Below are positions 15,849 through 39,672 of a DNA stretch of 39,862 nucleotides, piece after piece. Positions within the stretch are counted from its first letter, which is position 1. Each line of letters begins with the position of its first letter. This stretch comes from Chloroflexota bacterium (GTDB lineage Bacteria; Chloroflexota; UBA11872; VXOZ01): positions 1 through 39,862 of the forward strand of contig JAPPLM010000008.1 in assembly GCA_028874195.1 (NCBI GenBank), in the 5' to 3' direction. The translations under genes were made by a program, and so were the position numbers. A model generated the notes under the pieces. The model saw only the letters and a list, made by a program, of their open reading frames with translations. It ran no database searches and had not been told where the DNA came from.

Positions 15849-17057
15849 GTGAGAAAGACGATTGACGAACTGGGCGTTACGTTCGACACGGAATTCGAGG
15901 CGGCTGCGGCTGAGGACGTTTCCCTGGACGATGACGGGACCGTGCATCTCTACACGCGTGTCGATCCCAAGCCCACGGGCTTTGACGAGCACTTCAAAGG
16001 CGTGCCTACGCAGTACCGCTACAGCGTGCGCATCACGGCGCACAGGGAAACACCCGCGCTGCGCATCCACGTGCACACCGATAAAGAACTGGGCGGCTGG
16101 TACATCCAGTTTGGCGGCTTTGTCAAGCGCGAGGGCGGCTGGGAGCCGATACCCTTGGAAAACGCCACCAACGTGCCGGACACCAGCGACGTGCTCATCA
16201 CGCTTTCTCTAGTCGCGGGCGAATCCGTGCTGCTGGGCAGCATGCCGTTCATCGCCCCGTCGGAATTGGAGGCGCAACTCGAGGCGCTCATGCGAACGGA
16301 GGGACACGTCTGGTCGACCCGCGTCCTGGGTGAGACAGCGAAAGGGCGCAAGATTTGGGCGCTGGAGACGGCGCCCCGCGCCAAGCGGATTGTCATGGCG
16401 GGCACGTCGCAAGGCGCGGAACCGGTGGCGGAACGCTTGGTGGAACTCGCACGGCGGCTCACGGTCGATCTCACGGACTCGCGCTGGCTATTGGACAACT
16501 ATCAAGTCAGCCTAGTGCCCATGATCAATCCCGATGGCGCGGCGGAGGGGTACAGCCTGCTCAACGGCAGCGGCGAGGTGGTGGCCGGTGGTTACGGGGC
16601 GGCGGTGTCCGGCGAGCCATGTCCCGTGGAGAGCAAAGCGCTGGCCGACTACGTCGCGCTGGCGCCGACACAAGCCTACTTGGAGTTCCACGCCCATTAC
16701 CGGACGATACCGCCGGGCCAGGAAGACCACCTGGGCGTGCGCAAGCTGCACTTGCTCAATCCCGGCATGACGGACATCTATACGCCGGACACGGACCCGG
16801 AATATGTTGAAAGTTTTAATGCGGTCATGCGCCAGCGGCTCGGCGAGCACAACGACCACAGGCCGATAGGCCTCTGGTGGAAGCCGGCGGCGTTCTTCAC
16901 GCCCAACCTCGCCAGACTCCATCACAACTGCTTGTTCTACGCCGTGCAGTCGTGGAACTACGACCTCCAAGCCACCACCGGCTGGGCCGAGCGCTACCTC
17001 TACGCCGCGGCAGAGGGCATCGCCATCGCCAGCGGTGAGCCCACGTGGAGAGAGTGA
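15849..17057 (+). CDS. M14 zinc-carboxypeptidase family protein lacking one zinc ligand
   Basis: A 402 aa cytoplasmic-looking protein starting at GTG with TAAGGAG 8 nt upstream. The N-terminal ~150 residues form a beta-rich domain. The C-terminal part has the M14 fold: the zinc motif HxxE appears as QGAE (Gln188, Glu191), followed by SLVPMINPDGAAEGY and the later ligand region YLEFHAHYR (His281). M14 enzymes cleave C-terminal residues or related amides with one zinc held by His-Glu-His. The Gln for His change suggests a reduced or altered metal site. A TATACT -10 box lies at 15816. No partner genes stand next to it, and the substrate is unknown. Confidence 0.78.
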   Translation: MRKTIDELGVTFDTEFEAAAAEDVSLDDDGTVHLYTRVDPKPTGFDEHFKGVPTQYRYSVRITAHRETPALRIHVHTDKELGGWYIQFGGFVKREGGWEPIPLENATNVPDTSDVLITLSLVAGESVLLGSMPFIAPSELEAQLEALMRTEGHVWSTRVLGETAKGRKIWALETAPRAKRIVMAGTSQGAEPVAERLVELARRLTVDLTDSRWLLDNYQVSLVPMINPDGAAEGYSLLNGSGEVVAGGYGAAVSGEPCPVESKALADYVALAPTQAYLEFHAHYRTIPPGQEDHLGVRKLHLLNPGMTDIYTPDTDPEYVESFNAVMRQRLGEHNDHRPIGLWWKPAAFFTPNLARLHHNCLFYAVQSWNYDLQATTGWAERYLYAAAEGIAIASGEPTWRE

Positions 17058-17356: not shown

Positions 17357-17836
17357 CTAGTTGACAAACTGACCGCCGTGCAACCGTCTGAAGACGTCTC
17401 TGACCTTATTCCGCAATTGCGTCGGTGTGTGCTCCATAAAGACCCGATAGATTTCCTCGCTCCCTAATTTATGCTCGAGTTCCATATGGAGGCTAGCGAA
17501 TCCATACTTTGCGTAGAGCGCTCGCAACGCCGACAGCCATGCACTATCCCCCATCGCTTCACGCAGCTTCACGAGGAAGTGCAAGCCCATAGAATACAAG
17601 CAAAGGTCTAACACGTGGCCTCTTTCTTCCAAGTCGTGCAGACTATTGAACCCTAGATCACGGCAGTCAGAATTCTCCACTCTCGGGATGTCCTGGCTAG
17701 CGTCATTGAAATGGATCGCTACATACTCAGCGCCACCTTCAGAGAACCAGCGTGGGCCAAAATAGAAGTAGTAGTGAGCCGTCTCATGTTGCACAATTCT
17801 AGGCTCCAACGCTGCAAATGGTGATAGCGACATCAT
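17357..17836 (-). pseudogene. C-terminal gluzincin peptidase part of the frameshifted secreted protein 1
   Basis: This 159 aa frame carries a clear metalloprotease core: QHETAHYYF (HExxH, zinc and catalytic residues) and, 18 residues on, WFSEGGAEYVA, providing the third ligand as in MA-clan, peptidase-MA-like proteins. By itself it lacks a signal peptide and the upstream strands of the peptidase fold, which sit at the end of the preceding frame (17833-19155). The two frames overlap by ATGA, so reinitiation is conceivable. However, a third frame across the joint (about 17835-17875) reads like the missing linker (EVTTWHDDVAIT), suggesting one ancestral protein interrupted by small indels. An assembly error is an alternative. 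Confidence 0.7.
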
Positions 17837-19155
17837 CGTGCCAAGTGGTGACCTCGAGGTCCTCCGTCGAAAACAGCAAGGATCACGTCATCCACCGGAA
17901 ACGGCAATTCCCAGAACTTCTCGGATCTGCGCACGGCTCTCTCCAGGTCTGCGAGCACCACCCGGCCAACACGGCTCGAGAGATTATGAACCACCCACAC
18001 GTTCACAGCGCCCTTATGAGGCAGGACTATCGTCGACGAGGCAGTAGAATAGGGATCGAAGAGTTGATCGGAGTCCAAACGCGCGCCGCCTGCCGCAATG
18101 AGAAAAACGCGCTCTCTCTCGTCCAGTCCATCGAGGAACCACGGTGTTGTCATTAGACGCTCTAACCCATCCGGGCTATTGCCGGCAATGTCTCTCATTG
18201 CGTAGACCAAGAACAGGTCTGCCTCCTTGGGCGGGTAAGGGATGAGGTTCAACACAAGACGCGCAAACTCTGGGCCCGAATGCCGATTGTGAGGCCAAGT
18301 GAGCATTTCTTGCATTAGAGAGATTCCATAGCGAGACTCTATGAGTGTGAGGCCGTCCACAACCCAGGGTGCGGTCGCCAACTCTGTCGCGAAGTCCAGG
18401 TCGACGCGATGTGCTATATAGTGCAGATGTTCGACCGCCTCTCGCTCCCAACGATCGATTCCGTCCGCGATCCAAGGGAGCGCAACTAGGTGGGGAACGA
18501 ACGCAGCGGCTACCAGATCAAGACTGCCTATAGAGCTGATTACACTTGCTTCATCGGGGCGCATGTCCTCGTCGAATATCCATGCCCACCCCAGCAGCAC
18601 CTTCGCCAACTTTGAGTTGTAACTGTCGATCTGCTTCAAGAAAGTGAATGCCAAACTCTCATCATCGTTTAGGCCGTCACGATACCATGCGGAGACTGAT
18701 GCTCTTTTGGCCAGAGAAGAACCGAATACTGGCGCTGGGGTGGGTGTGGGAGAAGGCGCAATTGTGGGGATTGGTGTAATTGTCGCACCCGGTATTGGGG
18801 TAGGAGTGGGAGTCGCGATGCCGCCGCCGGGGGCGTAGTCCGCTTCCCACTCGAAGCGTTCGGAGTTGAGCCGTTGGACGAGGCCGTTGGGGCCGTTGAC
18901 CCAGGTGCGGTAGCCGTCGGTGAAGGCGGTCCAGTTGTCGGCCTTGCGCCAGACCAGCAGGCCGCCGGTGGTATGCTGCTCGCTGTTGCCGTTGGCGGCG
19001 TAGCGCTCGTTCTCCAGACACTCGCCGACGATGTCATGGCCGATGAGATCGCGAATGGTCTTGAAGCCGAAGACGAACTGGCATTCCGCTGCCGTGACGG
19101 TCGTAGGCAAGAGGAAGAAGAGTGCAGTCGCGGTAAGAATTGCAAGCCTTTTCAT
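17833..19155 (-). CDS. Secreted modular protein 1: shared head, Pro/Thr linker, helical repeats (peptidase end frameshifted off)
   Basis: From the ATG at 19155 (GGAGAGG just upstream) the protein is ~440 aa. It has a Sec signal peptide (KRLAILTATALFFLLP...AAEC), then the ~80 aa head shared with the genes at 19525 and 22328: two Cys (AEC, GEC), TTGGLLVWRKADNWTAFTDG and WVNGPNGL. A Pro/Thr-rich linker follows (about residues 110-145). Next come helical repeats of the 'PW(I/V/F)xDG(I/L)' type (LPWIADGI, APWVVDGL, TPWFLDGL). The last ~60 residues look like the entry strands of the gluzincin domain found in the next frame. It probably faced the cell exterior as a surface or secreted peptidase. The head's role is unknown. 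Confidence 0.75.
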   Translation of the reverse strand: MKRLAILTATALFFLLPTTVTAAECQFVFGFKTIRDLIGHDIVGECLENERYAANGNSEQHTTGGLLVWRKADNWTAFTDGYRTWVNGPNGLVQRLNSERFEWEADYAPGGGIATPTPTPIPGATITPIPTIAPSPTPTPAPVFGSSLAKRASVSAWYRDGLNDDESLAFTFLKQIDSYNSKLAKVLLGWAWIFDEDMRPDEASVISSIGSLDLVAAAFVPHLVALPWIADGIDRWEREAVEHLHYIAHRVDLDFATELATAPWVVDGLTLIESRYGISLMQEMLTWPHNRHSGPEFARLVLNLIPYPPKEADLFLVYAMRDIAGNSPDGLERLMTTPWFLDGLDERERVFLIAAGGARLDSDQLFDPYSTASSTIVLPHKGAVNVWVVHNLSSRVGRVVLADLERAVRRSEKFWELPFPVDDVILAVFDGGPRGHHLAR

Positions 19156-19240
19156 TTGCCTCTCCGATTTGCGCAAATCCTACTGCCGCTTTACAGATAT
19201 GCGACTTCAATTGAACCGACTACTTGCCCTCGGACACCTA

Positions 19241-19489
19241 CTACTCGCGTGGATTGTTGAAGGGATTCCAGTATATGAGAATCCGATTGCGATTGATGTC
19301 GGTGACGTACAGATTGTCGTTCTCATCGAACGTCGCTGAGTAGGGCATGGAACCAAAGTCGTGGAAGAAACCGCTGGGCGCGGTGTCGGGGCCGAGCGGA
19401 TTGTGGTAGAAAGCGACGAATCTTGGGCCTAAGTAACTATTAAAGCCCACCGCCATTCTATTGCTGCTGTCAAAAGCGGGCTCCCACAT
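19241..19489 (-). pseudogene. Detached C-terminal NHL segment of secreted protein 2
   Basis: This frame encodes one to two NHL/propeller blades: SATFDENDNLYVTDINRNRILIYWNPF. It follows the large NHL gene (19525-21948) in a different frame. Reading the same frame upstream through the large gene's stop gives a continuous FEPNQAINVSGHALVDRVG..., so it is the true C-terminus of that protein, cut off by an indel near 19545-19555 (GGCGCGTTTGAGCC). Confidence 0.7.
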
Positions 19490-19524
19490 TCCAACCCTGT
19501 CAACCAGCGCGTGACCGCTGACAT

Positions 19525-21948
19525 TTATTGCTTGATTCGGCTCAAACGCGCCGCAAAGTACTTACGCTCAAGGCGCCCCAATTCAGTGACTACCTTGGTC
19601 GCGGCCGGCGCATAGACGACCGAATGGTTGTCGATCGGGATCGAGCCGGCGGCAAAGATGAGGAGACGCTTGTTGCCGGCCACCTCCAGCGAATGGTCCG
19701 AGACATAGAGATTACCGAGCCGGTCATACGCGAGTCCGCCCGGGAAGCAGAGCATGTCGGCTGTCGGCGGTCCGGTATGGTCCTCAGGATTGTCCCACGC
19801 GCTGAAGTGCGCTTGACGGTTGCACTTGTTTCCCGTTGCCTCCTTTTGTCCGAGGATCACGTCCACTACGGGATTAGAGAGCGGGTTGCGAATCCGCAAG
19901 ACGCGGTGGTTATGAGAATCGCTGATCCAGATCATATCCCCGTTGCCTACCGGCGCGATACTGCGTATGTATGGGCCGAGGGTAACCGTGCTGCTCGACC
20001 TATGGCCGGACCCTGGGATGGTAAAAGTGGTTGGGCCAAGCCAGACAGTCTCATTTGTGCCGAGTACCGGGATGCTTATACCCTCGGTGCGAATTGTCTT
20101 TATTGGGACTGACTGCGCCGTCAGCGGCAATTGATAGACTTTGATGAATCGCGTGGTATCAGTACCTAAGACCCACAGTCTGCCTGCTCCATCCACCTTG
20201 ATGCGGCCACAGCACGTAAGTGGACTCTGCTGCCAATACGTCTCGCCAATGACGCCGTCGGCCGCCTGGCCGTTTCTGAGGTTCCTCACGTCATTCCAGA
20301 ACATCAACCGCTTCCGGTCTGCCGCGATGAGTTGATCAGCGTACACGGCTACACCGGCCACCCAGCCCAACTCTCTGCCGCTCTTGAAATTGTGCCCGCC
20401 GGGTGGGTAGAAGAGCCGTTTGTCGGCGTTGCCAACGGCTGCATTGGTAGCATCAGCATTGGGGGCTGGAAAACGAAGGACGTCTTGGGTAAACAGTTTG
20501 ACCGAAACCAGCACATTGGCGTCGGCATCGATGCCAATTCCGCCGCCGCTGCGGCTGGGGACGTCGCCGTGTGCCCTTCGGGTGCCGTTGCCATTCAGGT
20601 CCCACAGTTCAAAGGTTTTGGCGTCGGAGTTGTTGACCCACATGCTGTTTTGGTTCGGGTGCATCTCCAGCGAGGTCGGACGATTGAAATCGGAGCCGAA
20701 TACTGACGCCGCGCTCATGCCAGACGTGAACGGAGGGTGGAATACCAATATGCGGTCGTTGCCCTTATCGGCGACGTAGAGCCAGCCGTTGCTCGCGACT
20801 CTGACTGCTGCCGGAGAATCGAGTTGACTGAGCCCGAATCCTTTTGTGCTGCTCTGGAAACTGGGTTGTCCGAGCACTAAGTCAGCTTGCTTGGCTATAA
20901 CTCCGGTTGCGGCGTTTAGGGGGAAGCGGAGCACGCGGTGATTGGCGGCATCCGCCACCCAGAGATTGCCACTGGGATCAATCTCTACGCCGCTGGCGAA
21001 GCCGCCAATGCTGAGCCGCAGTTCCCAGGATTGAAAGCATAGGGTGTCGCTGGTAGGCGCGAACCCGGGGTTGTCGCGGTTGCAGACGATGCCTGTGAAA
21101 TCGCCCTGCCCCCAAACTTCATCCGCAATGGTGTCGGTCTCAAACGGGCGAGTGTACTTGAGGACGCGGTTGTTGAGAGAGTCCGGCACGTACAGATTGC
21201 CCGCGGCGTCAAGCGCCATCGTCACATAACTGTGCTCCTCATCCGGTGAAATGGCCACGTCGGGGATACCGCAGAGCGTTTCCGCGCTGGCCGCAGCGCG
21301 GAAGGGGAAGTTCTGCACATTGGAGTCTCCATTGCAGGCGGCATGATCGAAGAGCGACGGTTGTCCGAGCACAATATCCGCCCAACAGGGGCCGGAGCCG
21401 GCATAGCACTTGCTCAGGTCTACGCCGAGTATGCGGCTATTGCCCGCGTCCCAGATGTACGCCCGGCCCGGGGAAACCGACCGGTCGACGATCACCCCTC
21501 CTGGATTGAAAACCTTGTACGGCACAACTTGGTCGTCGGTGATCTGCGAGAAGTCCGGCTGGCCGATGATGACGTCTGCCCAGAGATCGCCGGCAACGCC
21601 ACGCACGGCTGAAGTCTGAACAAGCGGGGGCTCTATCTCCCAAGGAAAGCGCTCGGTGTTCAGTCGTTGCTCCAAGCCGTTGGGGCCGTTGATCCAGGTG
21701 CGGTAGCCGTCGGTGAAGACGGTCACGTTATCGGCCTTGCGCCAGACGAGGAGGCCGCCGGTGGTCTGTTGCTCGCTATTGCCGTTGGCGGCGTAGCGTT
21801 GATCCTCCAAGCATTCGCCGACGATGTCGTGGCCGATGAGGTCGCGCAACGTCGCAAAGCCGAGGACGAACTGGCACTCCGCCGCCGCTGCGGAAATTGG
21901 CAAGAGGAAGAAAAGAGCGAGTGCGAGCAGTACTGCTAGCCTCTTCAT
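19525..21948 (-). CDS. Secreted modular protein 2: shared head plus NHL-repeat beta-propeller, C-terminus frameshifted
   Basis: 807 aa. Sec signal peptide (MKRLAVLLALALFFLLP), then the shared head (AECQFVLGF ... GECLEDQ ... TTGGLLVWRKADN ... WINGPNGLEQRL, to about residue 105). The rest is a large NHL-type propeller with recurring 'xxIxGQPxF' turns (VIIGQPDF, IVLGQPSLF, LVLGQPSF, VILGQKEA) and blade cores such as NLYVPDSLNNRVLKY, NLWVADAANHRVLRF and DMIWISDSHNHRVLRI. NHL domains bind proteins, RNA or glycans; an extracellular ligand-binding or scaffolding role is likely. The ATG is preceded by AAAGGGACC. The final blades continue in another frame (19241-19489), so the annotated stop is probably a mutation or sequence error. 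Confidence 0.85.
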   Translation of the reverse strand: MKRLAVLLALALFFLLPISAAAAECQFVLGFATLRDLIGHDIVGECLEDQRYAANGNSEQQTTGGLLVWRKADNVTVFTDGYRTWINGPNGLEQRLNTERFPWEIEPPLVQTSAVRGVAGDLWADVIIGQPDFSQITDDQVVPYKVFNPGGVIVDRSVSPGRAYIWDAGNSRILGVDLSKCYAGSGPCWADIVLGQPSLFDHAACNGDSNVQNFPFRAAASAETLCGIPDVAISPDEEHSYVTMALDAAGNLYVPDSLNNRVLKYTRPFETDTIADEVWGQGDFTGIVCNRDNPGFAPTSDTLCFQSWELRLSIGGFASGVEIDPSGNLWVADAANHRVLRFPLNAATGVIAKQADLVLGQPSFQSSTKGFGLSQLDSPAAVRVASNGWLYVADKGNDRILVFHPPFTSGMSAASVFGSDFNRPTSLEMHPNQNSMWVNNSDAKTFELWDLNGNGTRRAHGDVPSRSGGGIGIDADANVLVSVKLFTQDVLRFPAPNADATNAAVGNADKRLFYPPGGHNFKSGRELGWVAGVAVYADQLIAADRKRLMFWNDVRNLRNGQAADGVIGETYWQQSPLTCCGRIKVDGAGRLWVLGTDTTRFIKVYQLPLTAQSVPIKTIRTEGISIPVLGTNETVWLGPTTFTIPGSGHRSSSTVTLGPYIRSIAPVGNGDMIWISDSHNHRVLRIRNPLSNPVVDVILGQKEATGNKCNRQAHFSAWDNPEDHTGPPTADMLCFPGGLAYDRLGNLYVSDHSLEVAGNKRLLIFAAGSIPIDNHSVVYAPAATKVVTELGRLERKYFAARLSRIKQ

Positions 21949-22079
21949 TGGTCCCTTTTGTCTCCTTATGCGCCAATCCCGATTCCATTCCTAACGCATA
22001 TCATCGATGTGGCAATTGACTATACGTGAATCCAGCAGAAACAATGAACACGTCACTCCCCACGAGGAATTGTTCGCCA

Positions 22080-22220
22080 TCACGGCAACGTGTCACGCAA
22101 CTCTAGCGCTCTCCCAGGCATTTCCTCCAGCTTTACAATTAGCGCTGTTTGGTCATCCCCGACACCGCCACGCAGCATTGTACGAGACAAGATACCCTGC
22201 AATCGGCTGGGCCGGGTACG
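22080..22220 (-). pseudogene. Possible remnant of a PP2C-type phosphatase C-terminus
   Basis: The minus strand reads ILSRTMLRGGVGDDQTALIVKLEE and then a short tail to a stop at 22080. The 'GG.GDDQTALIVKL' string resembles the last strand of PP2C-family phosphatases (usually '...G..DN.TVIVV.L'). Nothing upstream in this frame fits the rest of the family. The remainder of 21949-22327, between two secreted-protein genes, holds nothing I recognise. Low confidence. Confidence 0.25.
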
Positions 22221-22327
22221 CTGTTTAGGCGTGCCACGGAATGAGGGCTGTGGGGTCAAGCGCCTCAACGGTCTAAGAAAAGGCATGGCAAATCGCGCTG
22301 AGAGGCTACTTCGATTCAGCGCGTATT

Positions 22328-24127
22328 CTATCTTCTGAAATTAGCTGCGATATCTCTGATTACAGACACCTCATACGCAGTGAGGCCGTCCTGGATCCAA
22401 GGCTTGGCTGCCACGACTTGGAACGCTTCCGTTGATTCCCGGGCGAGCCTATACAGTACAAGTACGCTATGCGTATCAGAGTCGGTAATTCCGTCTGCTA
22501 CCCAGGGCAGGGACCAAATCAACTGAGCGGTATCGGGTTTCTCCCACTCTAGTCGCACGAGCGCCACAATTGCTCTTTGGCCATCTCTAATCCCACCAGC
22601 CAACTTGGGGTGGGAGACGACGTAGCGCAGGTCGGCCTTGTCCTCGAACAGTGTGCGAAGAGTGTCCAGAACTTCAGCGTCTTCCATCTCCAGCGTATCC
22701 AGAAAAGGCATAGAGAGGAATTGATTAGCTATCGATTGATCCCAGCCGCTAATGTCCACGAAGTTTTCAACGGCTTTGAGTTCCCAATAGGTGAGACCGT
22801 CTTGCATCCATGGCTTGCCGACCAAGCTCTCTAACAACTCATATGATTTTTCGGCAAGTCTGGCCAGGCTTTTGATTGTGCGTTCTTCAAACTCAGACGG
22901 GTGAGCCGTCGCTATGTGCAAGGTCCTGTTAATGGGCCTACCCAATCCGTCTTGTACCCAGGGAAGGGCTTCAATTATCGCTGCGGCTCTCGGGTTATTT
23001 ATTCTAAGAATTAGCAAGTGGATGAATGGAAGATGGTCATCAGTTATACCGGCAAGGAGTCTTGGGTGTGACAGAATCTGTCGTATACTGCCTGGGCGTG
23101 TCCTTTCTAGGTTGGACAACCCACTAACTACCATGTAATCATCGCCATCCTCTTTCGTCTGTAGGAAGGGCATGCGGAGCATCTGCAAGACTGCCGCCTC
23201 GTCATGGAGGGCTAGGTAGATGATGTCTGAGAGTGATGGGCCGGGATAGGGGTCGTTTCCAAAGTGCTCCATCCAGGCCCAGAATACCGGCTGCGATGCC
23301 AAAGCGAGGTGCTGCAAGTCATTGACGTTGCTCGGTCTTTCGCTGAACCGAGGTAGCTTTCTGATCGCAGCCGCAGACTCTGGATCCCGGGTCTCTAAGT
23401 AGAGCACGGGTAAGAGTGCGAACTTGTCACTTGTAATCCCGTTGCGCAATTCCGGATGAGCCAGAAGGTCCTGTAGCCCCGCGGCATCGGAAATTAAGAG
23501 TTCATTGAGCACTTGCCATGCGGTCTCAGTACCATACCCAAGGCCTACCATGAATGGCATTCTCATAACGCGGAGAGCCATCGCTTCGTCTCTATAGGTC
23601 AAGGCAAGCACTTGACGGTAGAGCATCGGCAGAAAGGCGCCGTTTACCGATAGGCTTTCAGACTGGATCCAGGGCTTTTGCATTAGCTCCCAGAAGACTT
23701 GCGGAGATGCTTGCTGCAGTTTTCGCAGGCTTTGTGCAGTCTCGCCTTCCCAGTAGTCCTGAAGCCCATCACTGACCCAAGGCAAAACCGCTATCGCGTT
23801 TTCTGCTTCCCAGGGCAAGAACTCAATGTTCAGGCGCTGTTCCAGGCCGTTCGGACCGTTTACCCACGAGCGGTAGCCGTCGGTGAAGGCGGTCCAGTTG
23901 TCGGCCTTGCGCCAGACCAGCAGGCCGCCGGTGGTATGCTGGAGGCCGTCGCCGTTGGCGCCGTGGTGCTGGTTCTCCAGGCACTCGCCCACGACGTCGT
24001 GGCCGATGAGATCGCGCAGCGTCTTGAAGCCGAGGACGAACTCGCATTCCGCTGCCGCCGCAGTGGTAGGCAGTAGCAGGAACAGAGCAGAGGCGAAGAG
24101 AGCCGCGAAACGCTTCAGTGGTAACAA
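22328..24127 (-). CDS. Secreted modular protein 3: shared head plus long helical-repeat solenoid (intact)
   Basis: About 600 aa. A signal peptide (KRFAALFASALFLLLP) and the shared head (AECEFVLGF, GECLENQHH, TTGGLLVWRKADNWTAFTDG) occupy the first ~110 residues. The remaining ~490 residues are alpha-helical repeats of ~35 aa whose linkers cycle through four types: LPWVxDG, KPWxQDGLT, MPF(L/M), HPxLxxGI. This gives about three and a half rounds. It has no peptidase domain, unlike protein 1. There is no ATG at the position where the paralogues start. I choose the TTG at 24127 (GGAAAAG upstream); TTG 24151 or CTG 24118 are alternatives. It is probably an extracellular binding scaffold. The repeat family is not one I can name. 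Confidence 0.8.
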   Translation of the reverse strand: MLPLKRFAALFASALFLLLPTTAAAAECEFVLGFKTLRDLIGHDVVGECLENQHHGANGDGLQHTTGGLLVWRKADNWTAFTDGYRSWVNGPNGLEQRLNIEFLPWEAENAIAVLPWVSDGLQDYWEGETAQSLRKLQQASPQVFWELMQKPWIQSESLSVNGAFLPMLYRQVLALTYRDEAMALRVMRMPFMVGLGYGTETAWQVLNELLISDAAGLQDLLAHPELRNGITSDKFALLPVLYLETRDPESAAAIRKLPRFSERPSNVNDLQHLALASQPVFWAWMEHFGNDPYPGPSLSDIIYLALHDEAAVLQMLRMPFLQTKEDGDDYMVVSGLSNLERTRPGSIRQILSHPRLLAGITDDHLPFIHLLILRINNPRAAAIIEALPWVQDGLGRPINRTLHIATAHPSEFEERTIKSLARLAEKSYELLESLVGKPWMQDGLTYWELKAVENFVDISGWDQSIANQFLSMPFLDTLEMEDAEVLDTLRTLFEDKADLRYVVSHPKLAGGIRDGQRAIVALVRLEWEKPDTAQLIWSLPWVADGITDSDTHSVLVLYRLARESTEAFQVVAAKPWIQDGLTAYEVSVIRDIAANFRR

Positions 24128-24310: not shown

Positions 24311-24521
24311 ACCCTCAGTGGTATTCCTATTGATGGGGCACTTGACGTTGCGTTGGTAGCGGTTCGAGCCAGGATGCGTTCTGCAACGATTGAGAAAGGA
24401 GAGTAGGCAATTTCATTGGCTTGAAGCAGCACTGCACACGAGCCCCGTAGGCGCGCCAATAAGCGGCGCGCATTTCATTGATGCTTTTTGATCAGTTGAT
24501 ACTCACTTGGAGGAAGAGAAC

Positions 24522-25916
24522 GTGAAAGCGACAGTAACACGACGAACTTTGCTCGGTGGCAGCTTGGTGGCTGGCGCGGGTATGCTGGCGGCCGCGTGCG
24601 GACAGGCCATGCCTGCCGCGCCCGCAGAGGGTGAAGCCCCGGCGGCCAAGGAAGAGGCGGCCAAGCCGGCCGAAGAGACCAAGGCCATGGAGCCGAAGAA
24701 GGTCGTCTATCTGCACTACACCACCACGCAGGCGGTGTGGGAAGAGAACTTCGGGCAGATTTTCGATAACTTCCGGGCGCAGTTTCCCGAAGCAGAGCTG
24801 CAAGTGGATGCCGTGACCGGCGGTTTTGGCGTGCTCATCGAGAAGGCCGTGGCCTCGTTCGCGGGCAACGTGCCCATCGACATGTATTACGGCCACTTTT
24901 CCTATATCAGCCAGTTTGCCCAGCAGGAGATGATCCAGCCGCTGGACCCGTTCATCGCGAAAGATGCCGACGTGGCCCGCGAAGACTTCTACGATCATGC
25001 GCTGGAGAAAATCCAGGGCCAGATCTACGGCATTGCCTGGTTCAACCAGGGCAAGGAATTCTGGTACAACGCGGACCAGGTGACCGAGGCCGGTCTGACG
25101 TCACCGAACGACTTGGTAGCGGAAGGCAAGTGGACGTGGGACGCCGCGCTTGAGTTTGCGCAAAAGCTCACCAAGCGGGAAGGCGCGAACACGACCCGCT
25201 GGGGTTTCTTCTATGCCTACCACTCCACTGGCTGGTTTGGACATCACCTGAAGGCATGGGGCGCTGACTGGTGGAACGATGACATCAGCGCGGCGACGAT
25301 GGATACGCCCGAGTTTGCTGCTGCGGTGCAGGCCGCCCAGGACTTGGTCGTGAAGCATGAGGTTTCGCCCCGCATTAGTAGCCCAAGCGAGAATGACGCG
25401 AAGGCGTCCTTTGAAGAAGAGACTCTTGCTTCGCGTTTGGCGAGCGGCGCCAATACGCGCAGCTTCCAAGCGAATATCATGTCCAAGGATAAGCCCTTCA
25501 ATATCGGTCACGCGTTGCTGCCCGAGGGCCCTGGAGGTCGCAACACGATTCAGGCGCTCAATGCGAACTACCTTAGTTCATCGGCGCCGCAAGCCGATCT
25601 GGCATGGGAACTTTACAAGATTCTCGTTGGTCCCGAATCCGACCAGCAGATTGCCCGGCTCGGCGGCCGCCGCTACACGGCCAGCCGCAAGCAGAGCCCG
25701 GTGACCCTGTGGCCGTATGAGAATGCCGACGTCTACGCTCAGATGGCGGAACTCAGTGATGGCGCCCAGCAGATTGTGAAGCAATCTGAGGTCAATGGCG
25801 CTTGGAGCCAGGGCTGGAAGGACATCGAGGACGGCGTCCGCACCATCCAAGAGGTGCAGGAAGAACTGCAGCAAGTAGCCACGATTGCCCTGGAAGAGGG
25901 CGGCTGTATCTGCTAA
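24522..25916 (+). CDS. Tat-exported lipoprotein solute-binding protein, paralogue B with C-terminal GGCIC
   Basis: 464 aa from the GTG at 24522, chosen because GGAGG lies upstream and it aligns with the start of the paralogue at 9246. It carries VTRRTLLGG, the lipobox MLAAACG and an Ala/Pro/Glu/Lys tether. The mature domain shares long identical stretches with paralogue A (YLHYTTTQAVW, AVASFAG, YYGHFSYISQFA). The C-terminus again ends Gly-Gly-Cys-x-Cys. It should bind a solute outside the membrane for an ABC importer encoded elsewhere. The two copies differ in the second lobe (for instance SPRISSPSENDAK against MRSRSAPSEDDVA), so ligand specificity may have diverged. A palindrome with a T7 run ends the transcript (25946-25980). 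Confidence 0.9.
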   Translation: MKATVTRRTLLGGSLVAGAGMLAAACGQAMPAAPAEGEAPAAKEEAAKPAEETKAMEPKKVVYLHYTTTQAVWEENFGQIFDNFRAQFPEAELQVDAVTGGFGVLIEKAVASFAGNVPIDMYYGHFSYISQFAQQEMIQPLDPFIAKDADVAREDFYDHALEKIQGQIYGIAWFNQGKEFWYNADQVTEAGLTSPNDLVAEGKWTWDAALEFAQKLTKREGANTTRWGFFYAYHSTGWFGHHLKAWGADWWNDDISAATMDTPEFAAAVQAAQDLVVKHEVSPRISSPSENDAKASFEEETLASRLASGANTRSFQANIMSKDKPFNIGHALLPEGPGGRNTIQALNANYLSSSAPQADLAWELYKILVGPESDQQIARLGGRRYTASRKQSPVTLWPYENADVYAQMAELSDGAQQIVKQSEVNGAWSQGWKDIEDGVRTIQEVQEELQQVATIALEEGGCIC

Positions 25917-32014: not shown

Positions 32015-33055
32015 ATGAGTACCGAACGACGCGCCAGACTTGCCTTCATAGGTTGTGGCTCCTTTGCCACGGCCTCCATTTTTCCCCAGATTCCGCTGAT
32101 TCCCGAGATCGACCTCGTCGCTGTTTGCGACATCGAAGAAGAAAAGGCGCAGCGCAACGCCCGCAATTTCGGCGCGCGCCGCGTCTACACCGACATGGAG
32201 AAAATGCTTGATACCGAGGAACTTGATGGTGTGTTCACCATCGGACCGGCGCCGCAGCAATACCAGCTTGCGCCGGTGGTGCTCCGGCGCGGCCTGCCGG
32301 TCTACACGGAAAAGCCATCGGCCAATACGTCACCGGAAGCCAAGGAACTGGCTGAACTGGCGGAGGCTAACGGCACGTGGGGCCAGGTGGGCTTTATGAA
32401 GCGATTTGCAGACGTGTACACCATTGCCAAAGAGGTGATCGCCCGACCTGAATTCGGCGGCCTGCACGTGCTCAAGGTCAAGTTCGGCCAGGGCAAGTAC
32501 CCCCAGATTTGGGGCATCGACTCCGCCAAACGGGCGTTTCTCATCGGCCAGTGCGTGCATATCTTCGACCTGGTGCGTTTCTTCGGCGGCGACGTGCGCG
32601 CCGTGAATGCCCTCTACTATGAGGTCGGCCCGCAGAACTTCTCCTATCTCATCCACCTGGAATTCGTGAACGGCACGGTCGGCCACATGGACATTAATAC
32701 GCTCGATTCCAAGGCGGGGACCCGCGACGTCATCGAGACGCTGGAACTCATCGGCATGGAAACCCACGTGGTCTGCGAAGACATGATGAAGGTCACGTAC
32801 CAGCCCCACGAGCAGTGGACGGAGGCGGCCCCGCGCTTGGGACGCTACAACTATACGCTCGAACCCTCTTGGACGGGCCTCGGCAAGAGCCAGACGAACT
32901 TCGGCTATACCGGTGAGGTGCGCCACTTCGCCCGCCGCTGCCTGGGCTTGGAGAACAGCGGCCCCGACCTCTGGGATAGCTACAAGTCGCTCACGTTCGG
33001 CGAGGCGGTCTACCGGAGCTCCCACGGCGGCGGCCGGGTGCTGGTGGAACAGTAG
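32015..33055 (+). CDS. Gfo/Idh/MocA family oxidoreductase, tandem copy 1
   Basis: 346 aa. The N-terminal NAD(P)-binding site is AFIGCGSFATA, then AVCDIEEEKAQ; the catalytic EKP motif is at 99-101 (Lys100), and the substrate-site helix is GQCVHIFDLVRFFGG. It is very close to the neighbour at 33642 (56 of the first 60 residues identical) and the same length. Such enzymes reduce or oxidise sugars or inositols; the paralogues may act on consecutive or epimeric substrates. It has its own promoter at 31888 and a ~100-nt leader; there is no strong ribosome site before the ATG. A family A palindrome follows (33082-33105). Confidence 0.92.
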   Translation: MSTERRARLAFIGCGSFATASIFPQIPLIPEIDLVAVCDIEEEKAQRNARNFGARRVYTDMEKMLDTEELDGVFTIGPAPQQYQLAPVVLRRGLPVYTEKPSANTSPEAKELAELAEANGTWGQVGFMKRFADVYTIAKEVIARPEFGGLHVLKVKFGQGKYPQIWGIDSAKRAFLIGQCVHIFDLVRFFGGDVRAVNALYYEVGPQNFSYLIHLEFVNGTVGHMDINTLDSKAGTRDVIETLELIGMETHVVCEDMMKVTYQPHEQWTEAAPRLGRYNYTLEPSWTGLGKSQTNFGYTGEVRHFARRCLGLENSGPDLWDSYKSLTFGEAVYRSSHGGGRVLVEQ

Positions 33056-33545: not shown

Positions 33546-33641
33546 TGCCGTAATACACCTCTCGGCGTGGACTGGCAGCTTTTCTCAATCATGCCGCATT
33601 CAGGCTGCGCCACGACCTCACACATAGGAGCGAAATCCCCC

Positions 33642-34682
33642 ATGAGTACCGAGCGTCGAGCCAGACTTGCCTTCATCGGTTGTGGCTCCTTTGCCACCGC
33701 CTCGATCTTTCCCCAAATACAATTCATCCCCGAGATCGATCTCGTCGCCGTCTGCGACATCGATTTGGAAAAGGCGCAGCGCAACGCCCGCAACTTTGGC
33801 GCGCGCCGCGTCTACACCGACATGGAAAAGATGCTGGATACCGAAGAGCTGGACGGCGTCTTCACCATCGGCCCGGCGCCGCAGCAGTATGAGCTCGCGC
33901 CGGTGGTGCTCAATCGCGGCCTGCCGGTCTACACGGAAAAGCCGTCGGCTAATACCTCCGCTGAAGCCAAAGAGCTGGCGGAATTGGCGGAAGCCAAAGG
34001 AGTCTGGGGCCAGGTGGGCTTTATGAAGCGCTTTGCCGACGTCTACCTGATTGCCAAGGAGATTATTTCTCGACCGGAGTTTGGCGATCTGCACGTGGTC
34101 AAGACCAAGTTTGGGCAGGGCAAATACCCGCAGATCTGGGGCATTGACTCCGCCAAGCGAGCGTTTCTCATCGGCCAGTGCGTGCACATCTTCGACCTCA
34201 TGCGCTTCTATGGCGGCGACGTGAAAGCCGTGAACGCGCTCTACCACGAGGTTGGCCCCCAGAATTTCGCGTACTTGATAAACGTCGAATTCACAAACGG
34301 TATGGTCGGCCAGATGGACATCAACACACTCGATTCTAAGGTGGCGTTTCGCGACATCATCGAGAATCTGGAACTCATCGGCCTGGAGCAGCACGTGGTC
34401 TGCGAGGACATGATGCGGGTCACGTACCAGCCCTACGAGGAATGGACGCAGGAGAAGCCGCACCTGGGCCGTTACAACTACACCGTCGAGCCCGCGTGGA
34501 ACAGTATGGCGCGGAGCCAGATGAACTTCGGCTACACCGGCGAGGTGCGCCACTTCGCCCGCCGCTGCCTGGGTCTGGAAGACTCCGGCCCCGATCTCTG
34601 GGACAGTTACAAGTCCCTCACGTTCGGCGAGGCAGTGTACGAGAGTTCCCACGGTGGCGGCCGAGTAGAGGTTGAGCCGTAG
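33642..34682 (+). CDS. Gfo/Idh/MocA family oxidoreductase, tandem copy 2
   Basis: 346 aa, same domain order as copy 1: GCGSFATA dinucleotide loop, EKP with Lys100, GQCVHIFDLMRFYGG. The start at 33642 aligns with copy 1 (MSTERRARL) and has TAGGAG ~11 nt upstream; earlier in-frame ATGs lack support. Differences from copy 1 concentrate in the C-terminal substrate domain (for example DSKVAFRDIIENLELIGLEQ against DSKAGTRDVIETLELIGMET), so substrate preference may have shifted. With the upstream repeat and promoter it is half of a ~1.3-kb tandem duplication. Confidence 0.92.
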   Translation: MSTERRARLAFIGCGSFATASIFPQIQFIPEIDLVAVCDIDLEKAQRNARNFGARRVYTDMEKMLDTEELDGVFTIGPAPQQYELAPVVLNRGLPVYTEKPSANTSAEAKELAELAEAKGVWGQVGFMKRFADVYLIAKEIISRPEFGDLHVVKTKFGQGKYPQIWGIDSAKRAFLIGQCVHIFDLMRFYGGDVKAVNALYHEVGPQNFAYLINVEFTNGMVGQMDINTLDSKVAFRDIIENLELIGLEQHVVCEDMMRVTYQPYEEWTQEKPHLGRYNYTVEPAWNSMARSQMNFGYTGEVRHFARRCLGLEDSGPDLWDSYKSLTFGEAVYESSHGGGRVEVEP

Positions 34683-36052: not shown

Positions 36053-37972
36053 ATGGGAAGCGAACTTCCAACGCCGCGTCTCTTTGACAACACCTCCGAC
36101 TGGTTCCCCATCAACCGCTCGTGGCAGTTCGAGCCACCGGCAGACATTCACGGGGCGATGACGCCCAATAAGGTTGAGGCCGCCAGTGGACATACCTTCG
36201 TGGCGACGCTCACCCTCGGGCCGGAACTCACGCTGTCCCCCGGCGCGCACGTCACTATGGAAGTGCCGAGCACGTGGGAGTGCCACCTGGGGAATCCCTA
36301 TCCGCGTGGACTGAAGACCGTTGGCAACCGTGAGAAGAGCCAGATTCGCAAGGTGGGATATGGGGCGTTCACGGACGTGGAGTGCACACGCCCTGAGGTT
36401 AAGCTGGCCTATGTCGCATCCTGGGGACGTCACATGGACCTGGTGGACGTGGTGGTGCAGGAGGGCGAGCTGGGGCCGGGCGATGCCGTCCGCGTCATCC
36501 TGGGACCGCCAGACGGCAACCTGGTGCAGGCGCAGCGCTATGCGCAGGTGGCGATCTTCACGGTAGGGGTTGACCGAAAAGGCGATGGGACCTACCGCCA
36601 GGCCGCCACGCACCCAACGGTGCGCGTGGTCGGCGCGCATGCTGAGCGCTTCAAGATATTTGCGCCCGCCGTCGTTCAGACCGGCGAGAATTTCGCGATC
36701 CGCGTGCTGCCGGTGGATGGCTACAGCTACAATGCCGCGACCGGCTATCAAGGACGGGCACAGACGATTGCCACTGAGGGCCTCGAGGTGCCGCAGGCCG
36801 TTGCTGTTGATCAACGTGCGGACCGTGCGGGATCAACCTTCTCTGCTAGAGCCGCGATTGAGGGCATCCACCGTGTCACGGTGGTCGATCCCGCCACCGG
36901 CATCGCGGGCAAGAGCAATCCCATTGGCGCGGGCTTCTTGCGCGATCGGAACGTCTACTTTGGCGAGATGCACAGCCAGATGTGGCATAGCCAGGGCACC
37001 GGAACCACTACGGAGTTTTTCGAGTGGGGGCGCGACGTGGCCGGTCTCGACTTCTGCGCCCCGGCGAACCACTACAAGATGCGTTTCGAAATCGTCGATG
37101 AAGTCTGGCAAGAGGTGGTGGATACATCCAACGCCTTCAACGATGCCCACCGGTTCGTCACGCTGGTCAGCCACGAGTGGGGCACAGGCAATCCCAACGG
37201 CCACAAGAACATCTATCATCGCGGCGATAGCGCCGAATTCATCTGCTCATTCGGGCCCGGCGGCATGACGCCGGATGAGCTTTGGGAGATCCTCAAGGGA
37301 CGCGACGCCCTGACCATCCCGCATCACACCAAATTTGGCAACATTACGAACTGGGACTACCGCAACGACACGCACCAACGGCTGGTTGAAATCTGCTCGA
37401 GCTGGGGCATCTCCGAGACCGGCGGCCCGCACAGTGTTCAGACTGCGCTGGCCATGGGGCATCGTATCGGTTTCATCGGCGGAACCGATTCCCACCACGG
37501 CTTGGCGAACCAGGGCAGCTTTTTCGTCGACGACGGCAACGGACTTGCCTGCGTGATGGCCCGCGAGTTGACCCGTGACTCCATCTGGCAGGCGCTCAAC
37601 GAACGACGCTGCTACGCCACTACCGGCGACCGCATTCTGCTGGACTTCACCATGAACGACGCGTCGATGGGTAGCGACCTCAGCGTGGACTTGGCCCAGT
37701 ACGGGCCCAGAGAATTCACCATGCGTGTAGCGGGAACCTATCGTATTGACGCCATCGAGTTACTGCGCAATAACGAGGTGATCTTCAGCGCCGACCCACG
37801 TAGCGACGTATGGGAAGATCGATGGACTGATGCTGACCCCTTACCAGAGATTGCGCTCACGCCTACGTTTCCCCATGACCGTCCCTTTGTCTGCTACTAC
37901 CTCCGTGTCACACAGGCCAACCGCCAAATGGCCTGGGCAAGTCCGATCTGGCTTACGGAACGGAAGCGTTGA
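36053..37972 (+). CDS. DUF3604 family protein (PHP-like metal-dependent hydrolase)
   Basis: 639 aa, no signal peptide. The N-terminal ~290 residues are two beta-rich domains. The C-terminal part is a PHP-like barrel: NVYFGEMHSQ (replacing the usual GDLHxH), FCAPANHYKM, VTLVSHEWG, LTIPHHTKFG and GFIGGTDSHHGL, all His/Asp metal-ligand segments, then a C-terminal beta domain after ATTGDRILLDF. DUF3604 proteins are poorly characterised; by fold they should hydrolyse phosphate esters or similar bonds with two or three metals. TAAGGA stands 6 nt before the ATG. The setting beside PhyH, Gfo/Idh and sulfatase genes suggests a role in breaking down a modified organic compound. The fold call is firm, the reaction unknown. 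Confidence 0.88.
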   Translation: MGSELPTPRLFDNTSDWFPINRSWQFEPPADIHGAMTPNKVEAASGHTFVATLTLGPELTLSPGAHVTMEVPSTWECHLGNPYPRGLKTVGNREKSQIRKVGYGAFTDVECTRPEVKLAYVASWGRHMDLVDVVVQEGELGPGDAVRVILGPPDGNLVQAQRYAQVAIFTVGVDRKGDGTYRQAATHPTVRVVGAHAERFKIFAPAVVQTGENFAIRVLPVDGYSYNAATGYQGRAQTIATEGLEVPQAVAVDQRADRAGSTFSARAAIEGIHRVTVVDPATGIAGKSNPIGAGFLRDRNVYFGEMHSQMWHSQGTGTTTEFFEWGRDVAGLDFCAPANHYKMRFEIVDEVWQEVVDTSNAFNDAHRFVTLVSHEWGTGNPNGHKNIYHRGDSAEFICSFGPGGMTPDELWEILKGRDALTIPHHTKFGNITNWDYRNDTHQRLVEICSSWGISETGGPHSVQTALAMGHRIGFIGGTDSHHGLANQGSFFVDDGNGLACVMARELTRDSIWQALNERRCYATTGDRILLDFTMNDASMGSDLSVDLAQYGPREFTMRVAGTYRIDAIELLRNNEVIFSADPRSDVWEDRWTDADPLPEIALTPTFPHDRPFVCYYLRVTQANRQMAWASPIWLTERKR

Positions 37973-38118
37973 AGCGGCAGGCGGGACTGACGAAAGAGGC
38001 GGCGAGAGTTTACTCTTGGAGATTGGAAGTTCATCCACTTTGTGGAGTTCCTCGCTCAGGTGTATTGTGTCGCATGGTTGAGATGCGCTTGAGAGAAAGA
38101 TCCCATTCCACTGCCGCG

Positions 38119-39672
38119 ATGAGAGTTAATCTGAATGCCAGGCGCTGGTTGGCAGCGTTCGTGCTGGCTTGCCTCAGTATCCTCTGCCTGCCGCACGTCT
38201 CTCTACAGGCGGCGAGCGCCACTCCCCAAGAGCAGGCTATCGCGCGGTTGAACGAATTGCGCGCGTATGCGCACGCGCCTCCCGTGCGGGCCGACCCTGC
38301 TTTGCAGCAGGCGGCGGAAGCGCATGCCGCTTACTATGCCGAGAATGGCTTTACCGGACACTATCAGGAGCCTACGAGTGCCGGCTTCACCGGGGCGACA
38401 CCGGCGGATCGCATAAAGGCCGCCGGGTTTACCGGTAAGTGCACCGGTGAGTCTGCCTCCACCATCGGCGGCGATCCGGCGGCGGCCGTGGACGCGCTGG
38501 TGAATAGCGTCTACCACCGCACGATTATGCTGCATCCGGCGTTGGTGCTGGTAGGCTACGGACAGAGCGCGGGCGGGAGTGTGTTCGACTTTGGGGGCTG
38601 TGTTGACGGCCTGCCGGTTCTCGATCGCCTCTACATCTATCCGGGAGTGGGCCAAAGCGACGTACCGCACAGCTTCTTGCCGAGAACTGAGATTCCGAAC
38701 CCGCTGCCGGACACCGAGGGCTACGTTGGCAGTCCCATAAGCATCGGCGCGTCGCCGTGGTCGCAAGAGCCGGTGCACATAACAGACGCACGGATAGTCG
38801 ACCAGGCCGGCGTACCCTTGTCCTTCCATCGCGTTGACGACGATGGCTGGACGTACTTCATGACCACACTGCCGCTGGGCGCCGGCCAGACGATTACGGT
38901 GAGCATCACCGGCAATGCCGTGGCAAGCGAGGTCGGCCCCTTCGCGCGCACGTGGTCGTTCTCAACGCAATCCGCTTTTCTGCCGCACATGCTCCACTTG
39001 CGCTTCGTACAGGGCACGCCGCAGCTTGTGACGGAGTACGTTGCCAAAGATTACGCTTGCTACGGCCAGACGACAGGGCAAACGTCCACACTTGCCGATG
39101 AGGTAGTCACCTTGCCGTGCTATGACATTGTGAACGGTTCGGAAGCGTATGGCGAGGTACCTTTTCTCGCAGAGTTCCGGCGCGCCGGGGGCGTTGACGC
39201 TCTCGGCTATCCGCTCACGCGTGCCATTACCTACGAGGGCCGGCCGACGCAGTTTTTCCAGAAGGGCGTGCTGCAATGGCAGTCGGCAACCCGCTCCTTC
39301 GCCTATCTCAACGTCTTCGACATGCTTAGCACGCAGGGTTTCGATCCGGTGCTTGCAACCCAATATCTCATTCCCCCGCCGGCTGATACGTCCGCGGCTG
39401 ACGGCCTTAACTGGGACCAGGTGGCGGCACGGCGCATGGCCATCATGTACGAGGCGCCGGCAATCGCCACCTACGTACTCAATACGCCGAACTGGCTCGA
39501 CCGCTACGGCCTCCCCACGGGCAGCCACGACTACGGCAACGTGGTGGTGGTACGTGCACAGCGGGCCGCGTTCCAGTGGTGGCGCGTCGACACACCTTTC
39601 GCCAAAGCGGGCGAAGTTACAGTGGTGAACAGCGGGGACATAGCGAAAGCGCTGGGCGCGTTCGTGCGGTAG
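38119..39672 (+). CDS. Secreted CAP (SCP/PR1)-domain protein
   Basis: 517 aa from the ATG at 38119, chosen because a signal peptide (RRWLAAFVLACLSILCLP...LQAA) begins there; an ATG at 38074 is the alternative. The CAP domain follows: AIARLNELRAYAHAPPVRADPALQQAAEAHAAYYAENGFTGHYQ and HRTIMLHPALVLVGYGQS. The middle is an Ig-like/beta segment (PVHITDARIVDQAG; GAGQTITVSITG). The end has a 'FRRAGGVDALGYPLT...GRPTQFFQKGVLQW' module that I recall from other Chloroflexota secreted proteins. CAP proteins are extracellular and bind sterols or partners, or have protease-like roles. The canonical His/Glu cavity seems only partly kept. It is a second externally directed protein besides the 17-24 kb array. 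Confidence 0.85.
   Translation: MRVNLNARRWLAAFVLACLSILCLPHVSLQAASATPQEQAIARLNELRAYAHAPPVRADPALQQAAEAHAAYYAENGFTGHYQEPTSAGFTGATPADRIKAAGFTGKCTGESASTIGGDPAAAVDALVNSVYHRTIMLHPALVLVGYGQSAGGSVFDFGGCVDGLPVLDRLYIYPGVGQSDVPHSFLPRTEIPNPLPDTEGYVGSPISIGASPWSQEPVHITDARIVDQAGVPLSFHRVDDDGWTYFMTTLPLGAGQTITVSITGNAVASEVGPFARTWSFSTQSAFLPHMLHLRFVQGTPQLVTEYVAKDYACYGQTTGQTSTLADEVVTLPCYDIVNGSEAYGEVPFLAEFRRAGGVDALGYPLTRAITYEGRPTQFFQKGVLQWQSATRSFAYLNVFDMLSTQGFDPVLATQYLIPPPADTSAADGLNWDQVAARRMAIMYEAPAIATYVLNTPNWLDRYGLPTGSHDYGNVVVVRAQRAAFQWWRVDTPFAKAGEVTVVNSGDIAKALGAFVR

Follow-up and report, generated by a model that had tools for sequence, protein, structure and literature searches.

Three neighbouring minus-strand genes (A, B and C) within a 39,862-nucleotide stretch of a Chloroflexota genome, hereafter the window, each encode a signal peptide followed by one common head of ~83 residues, which we consider, with slightly better than even confidence, to be an envelope tether, LGFP-like but divergent, that has spread by copying of a cassette. 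The original prediction, made from the sequence, had already viewed the head as a common surface-targeting or recognition module. This view gains inferential support from the LGFP-like predicted fold of the head and from an LGFP-like repeat that occupies the same slot in homologous proteins, as well as from signal peptides unaccompanied by another anchor and a wide diversity of partners.

Organization of the array and of its site in related genomes

The presence of three minus-strand genes, each beginning with a signal peptide and a head of about 80 residues, was confirmed: the heads could be located in all three genes (Table 1) and display pairwise amino acid identities of 79-83%, far above chance. 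The array is flanked by a zinc-carboxypeptidase-like gene (15849-17057) and a solute-binding-protein gene (24507-25916). Further along the window, two adjoining and very similar oxidoreductase genes (32015-33055 and 33567-34682; Gfo/Idh/MocA-like by eye) form a tandem duplication.

Synteny of the genes flanking the array is kept in four congeners. Between these syntenic flanks, congeners G001, G002 and G003 carry no genes, and G004 carries a single gene composed of a head, a solenoid piece and an NHL region. On a G005 contig, two head-solenoid-gluzincin genes and a truncated head-NHL gene adjoin the same solute-binding-protein gene. The head cluster is thus variable within one genus. A profile search identified 14 heads on 10 contigs of the source genome. 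Because 11 of these 14 are located outside the array and three congeners have nothing at the site, the idea that the locus is a special reservoir is unsupported; the window locus is one variable site among many. Nothing pointed directly to effectors acting on a host or prey.

Table 1. Features of the array genes and of the LGFP-like repeat elsewhere in the window
Feature	Position	Strand	Basis
Gene A, signal peptide (MKRLAILTATALFFLLPTTVTA)	19090..19155	-	Translation; hydrophobic segment directly before the head
Gene A, head	18838..19089	-	Profile match 7.4e-57; predicted model with pLDDT 96
Gene A, Pro/Thr-rich linker (YAPGGGIATPTPTPIPG...)	18724..18837	-	Translation; linker shared with most head genes in the genus
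Gene A, solenoid body of the family of C	17863..18723	-	59% identity to the C33 paralogue (head + solenoid)
Gene A, gluzincin domain (HETAH...SEGGAEY), out of frame with the rest of A	17357..17836	-	50% identity to the C-terminus of the C33 paralogue
Gene B, signal peptide	21883..21948	-	Translation
Gene B, head	21631..21882	-	Profile match 2.8e-56
Gene B, NHL propeller	19525..21630	-	PF01436, 5.9e-22; 82% identity to the G004 homologue
Gene B, final ~100 residues, shifted by one base into another frame	19241..19546	-	88% identity with the end of the G004 homologue over 100 residues; DNA alignment
Gene C, signal peptide, with CTG at the expected ATG	24053..24118	-	Sequence
Gene C, head	23801..24052	-	Profile match 1.8e-55
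Gene C, alpha-solenoid body without peptidase domain	22328..23800	-	Predicted model of paired helices along its whole length, mean pLDDT 74
LGFP-like repeat in the CAP protein 37969-39672, outside the array	39157..39339	+	Seed of profile A4

Bodies and integrity of the three genes

The bodies had been described as diverging completely into three kinds. However, the part of A that precedes the peptidase and the body of C belong to one solenoid family, marked by PW-x-x-DG repeats, and there are hence two body types rather than three. The reading of C as a helical solenoid was upheld by its predicted model; its body is homologous to the solenoid part of the G005 head-solenoid-gluzincin genes. A structural search with the solenoid yielded no named relative, its matches being confined to designed helical-repeat proteins with a Z of at most 8. 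The NHL propeller predicted for B proved correct, PF01436 matching four stretches with 77 bits against a cut-off of 20; in the G004 homologue, a solenoid piece sits between the head and the NHL region. Both parts predicted for A, helical repeats and a gluzincin domain, can be recognised in its sequence, the solenoid being shorter than that of C, but the gluzincin domain with its HETAH and SEGGAEY motifs is out of frame with the head, whereas a paralogue on contig C33 of the same genome carries everything in a single frame. The Pfam M1 match of this domain is weak (14 bits against a cut-off of 27.7).

Since the intact C33 paralogue (623 amino acids) matches both the solenoid and the gluzincin parts of A, gene A is frameshifted or mis-assembled, with a frame break between about 17863 and 17812. 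Compared with the intact 1007-amino-acid G004 homologue, gene B misses one base near 19546, and its reading continues in another frame to about 19241. Gene C displays CTG AAG CGT in place of the ATG AAG that opens the signal peptides of A and B, and its start codon, lost or non-standard, is thus uncertain. From these alignments, A and B look damaged in this assembly, and the cause may be assembly error or decay.

The frame breaks of A and B, the missing ATG start and missing peptidase of C and the empty site in G001, G002 and G003 would all suit a cluster that is largely a decaying remnant, made of pseudogenes with little function in this organism. We regard this as unlikely, although it is the strongest of the competing explanations: the open frames are long and their heads conserved, metagenome assemblies can carry single-base shifts as errors, and intact relatives occur in the same genome (C33, C23) as well as in G004 and G005. 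Such decay would moreover say nothing on the heads located elsewhere and is compatible with an envelope tether.

Sequence searches and predicted structure of the head

The head had been thought to match no named domain, and this was borne out: searches in Pfam, NCBIfam, PHROG, PADLOC and PDB sequences gave nothing usable, and a full-text literature search for the motif string found no paper. Structure prediction, put forward earlier as a check, yielded a confident model (pLDDT 96) featuring one helix packed on a five-strand antiparallel sheet. Two cysteines are invariant, and the core (W..DN.T.FT.G..TW) contains many conserved aromatic residues. The best structural matches were the LGFP domains of Corynebacterium glutamicum MytA, the first with a Z of 7.8 (58 residues, 2.0 Å) and the second with a Z of 7.6 (54 residues, 1.6 Å, 24% identity); values of this size are also seen for models that have no clear relatives. 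The next row followed at Z 5.8, almost two units lower, and Foldseek returned no match below an E-value of 0.001. Matches to polo-box domains (Z about 5.5, 5% identity) were discounted, this arrangement being a common one.

Comparison with LGFP repeats

The LGFP profile PF08310 matched none of 66 heads at E-values up to 10, and gave no match in the source genome. The head displays VGxC without the LGFP-type tetrapeptide (L-G-F/Y-P), of which only the G is kept; the LGFP domains of GH70 enzymes likewise retain only this G (PMC11299179). The LGFP domains of MytA interact with peptidoglycan-arabinogalactan and are built from a helix and a 3- or 4-stranded sheet, and some LGFP domains harbor a conserved cysteine pair (PMC11299179).

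Chloroflexota possess LGFP-like repeats of their own, in CAP and related proteins, which we gathered in a profile (A4) seeded with a repeat of a CAP-domain protein of the window (Table 1). This profile finds MytA (6swz) at 1.4e-20 and detects such repeats in 77 of 151 genomes; a scan of viral contigs for them found none. The CAP-domain protein itself, with its C-terminal LGFP-like repeats, forms a bridge from the Chloroflexota repeats to MytA. Comparison of the head and A4 profiles gave a score of 19.84 and an E-value of 0.002 with an hhalign probability of only 14%, and this score tops those of 100 column shuffles, although the best shuffle scored almost as high. The alignment is in the expected register, with VGxCLxNE..NG..Q.TTGGLLVW placed on MytA.

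No examined protein carries both a head and an LGFP-like repeat. In G007, G013 and G028, which represent another family of the class (L281, L276 and L280), solenoid-gluzincin homologues bear an LGFP-like repeat (E about 1e-12) that sits behind the signal peptide, in the slot of the head. As homologous solenoid-peptidases carry either module in the same slot, the head and the LGFP-like repeat stand in for one another. The relatives in G001 and G002 (L279 and L278) have neither, and a hydrophobic segment lies upstream of their solenoid.

Distribution, partners and rival functions

The head was found in 60 of 400 sampled Chloroflexota genomes, namely 35 of the 41 genomes of the source class versus 25 of the 359 others. 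A scan of 84,980 species led to 121 confirmed head stretches, and all 79 listed loci were titled Chloroflexi, Chloroflexota or Anaerolineae. Close relatives may, judging by sample names, be of sponge origin; the head also occurs in MAGs from soil, groundwater and sediment. Plasmid records searched for the head gave no match, and heads were present on five IMG/VR contigs (L183-L187). One head-bearing IMG/VR contig, of 19306 bases, has the same size as a Chloroflexi MAG contig (L181), and some of these contigs may be cellular.

The profile search for partners advocated by the original prediction recovered the head across Chloroflexota, and the bodies of 95 head proteins matched 38 Pfam families. 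These include LRR, NHL, Ldl_recept_b, GSDH, CAP, LysM, META, Gmad2, DUF4232, DUF6782, SBP_bac_5, Peptidase_A4, Peptidase_C39_2, Metallophos and Sortase, and two head proteins additionally carry LysM. The head is N-terminal, directly behind the position of the signal peptide, in 87 of 93 proteins, a hydrophobic signal segment preceding it in 85 of these 87; it lies near the C-terminus in six proteins. One protein (L103/L168) has two heads in tandem, nearly all others a single one. LPxTG was found in none of the 93 proteins, and a C-terminal membrane segment in one. Two individual loci may be mentioned: a sortase-domain protein bearing the head C-terminally (L154, 2129-2983), and a pair of head-solenoid genes (L109; G005:C69) whose heads are nearly identical and whose bodies agree fully over the first ~210 residues, originating from tandem duplication or from an assembly repeat.

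A secreted domain rich in conserved core aromatics, devoid of another anchor and joined to repeat proteins such as LRR and NHL could also be a carbohydrate- or matrix-binding domain aimed outwards, delivering its bodies to a host matrix, detrital polysaccharide or other cells. We hold this to be rather improbable, since sortase, LysM, SBP_bac_5, Cu/Zn superoxide dismutase-like and META partners hardly share one external target, the head also occurs in the soil, groundwater and sediment MAGs, and it is interchangeable with an LGFP-like repeat. Least probable of all is a role in folding, export or latency, the head then being a pro-region or a chaperone-like module at the N-terminus with no part in anchoring. 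Such a role would agree with the position behind the signal peptide and with a Pro/Thr-rich linker that could be cleaved, but it is at odds with the C-terminal and tandem heads, with non-enzymatic bodies following the head as often as enzymes and with a predicted fold resembling a binding repeat.

Probable copying of the head between genes

On contig C10 of the source genome, two adjoining genes are identical over 354 bp, from the last part of the signal peptide through head and linker, beyond which their bodies are unrelated. Between gene B and its G004 homologue, 6 of 36 fourfold sites differ in the head versus 127 of 306 in the body (Fisher p 0.0036); between gene A and its C33 paralogue, the corresponding values are 7 of 33 and 56 of 101 (Fisher p 0.0006). 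Synonymous divergence of the head is ~0.4 of that of the body. GC3 is higher in the head than in the following sequence in 13 of the 14 genes of the source genome and, within the genus, the nearest head in DNA sits on an unrelated body in 20 of 45 cases.

The C10 identity, the low synonymous divergence and the high GC3 of the head would fit gene conversion restricted to the head. Codon selection could equally account for the latter two, but not for the 354 identical bp. The domain swapping originally proposed is thus sustained by the identical cassette, the lower synonymous divergence of the head and the nearest heads on unrelated bodies. Swapping is also seen in related genomes, although most heads there are scattered single genes and not arrays.

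Discussion

We propose that the head is a small secreted Chloroflexota module, divergent and usually present as a single LGFP-like unit, whose two conserved cysteines may form a disulfide. Once exported and freed of its signal peptide, the head would attach non-covalently to a glycan of the envelope and thereby retain the body behind the linker at the cell surface. Head and linker behave as a cassette copied from gene to gene, whereby one tether can serve many bodies. We infer the LGFP relationship, the disulfide, the glycan binding and the surface retention; the head probably works like an LGFP domain, although the affinity of a single unit may be too low to retain a protein.

More tentatively, and somewhat short of an even chance, Chloroflexota may possess a phylum-specific, sortase-independent surface-display tag in the form of a head-plus-linker cassette spread between genes by recombination. 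If so, gaining a piece of ~350 bp would turn a new secreted protein into a surface protein. Little is known of the Chloroflexota envelope, and most of the phylum is uncultured; as a marker for probable surface proteins over many Chloroflexota lineages, the head would give a handle on their surface proteome. Cassette exchange also offers a tractable example from nature of how one domain spreads over many proteins, and the head fills a gap in domain libraries.

LysM, SLH and SPOR are promiscuous non-covalent wall anchors, small modules that tie unrelated bodies to the envelope; their sequences and folds differ from those of the head. The closest known system is the LGFP repeat (PF08310; MytA/PS1, PDB 6swz and 6sx4), which like the predicted model of the head combines a helix with an antiparallel sheet and which, like the head, is joined to unrelated secreted proteins; in MytA repeat 1, G, C-L-x-N-E, G, Q, G and W are spaced much as in the head. 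Unlike LGFP, the head has no Pfam match and no LG-F/Y-P tetrapeptide, usually occurs as one unit where LGFP has 3-5 tandem repeats (commonly five), and features five strands, two invariant cysteines and 83 rather than about 54 residues. Given the mismatch in Pfam model, tetrapeptide and tandem arrangement, we do not file it under LGFP. The Chloroflexota LGFP-like repeats, which are clear sequence relatives of MytA where the head is not, share with the head the same phylum, an occurrence in secreted proteins and a weak in-register profile similarity.
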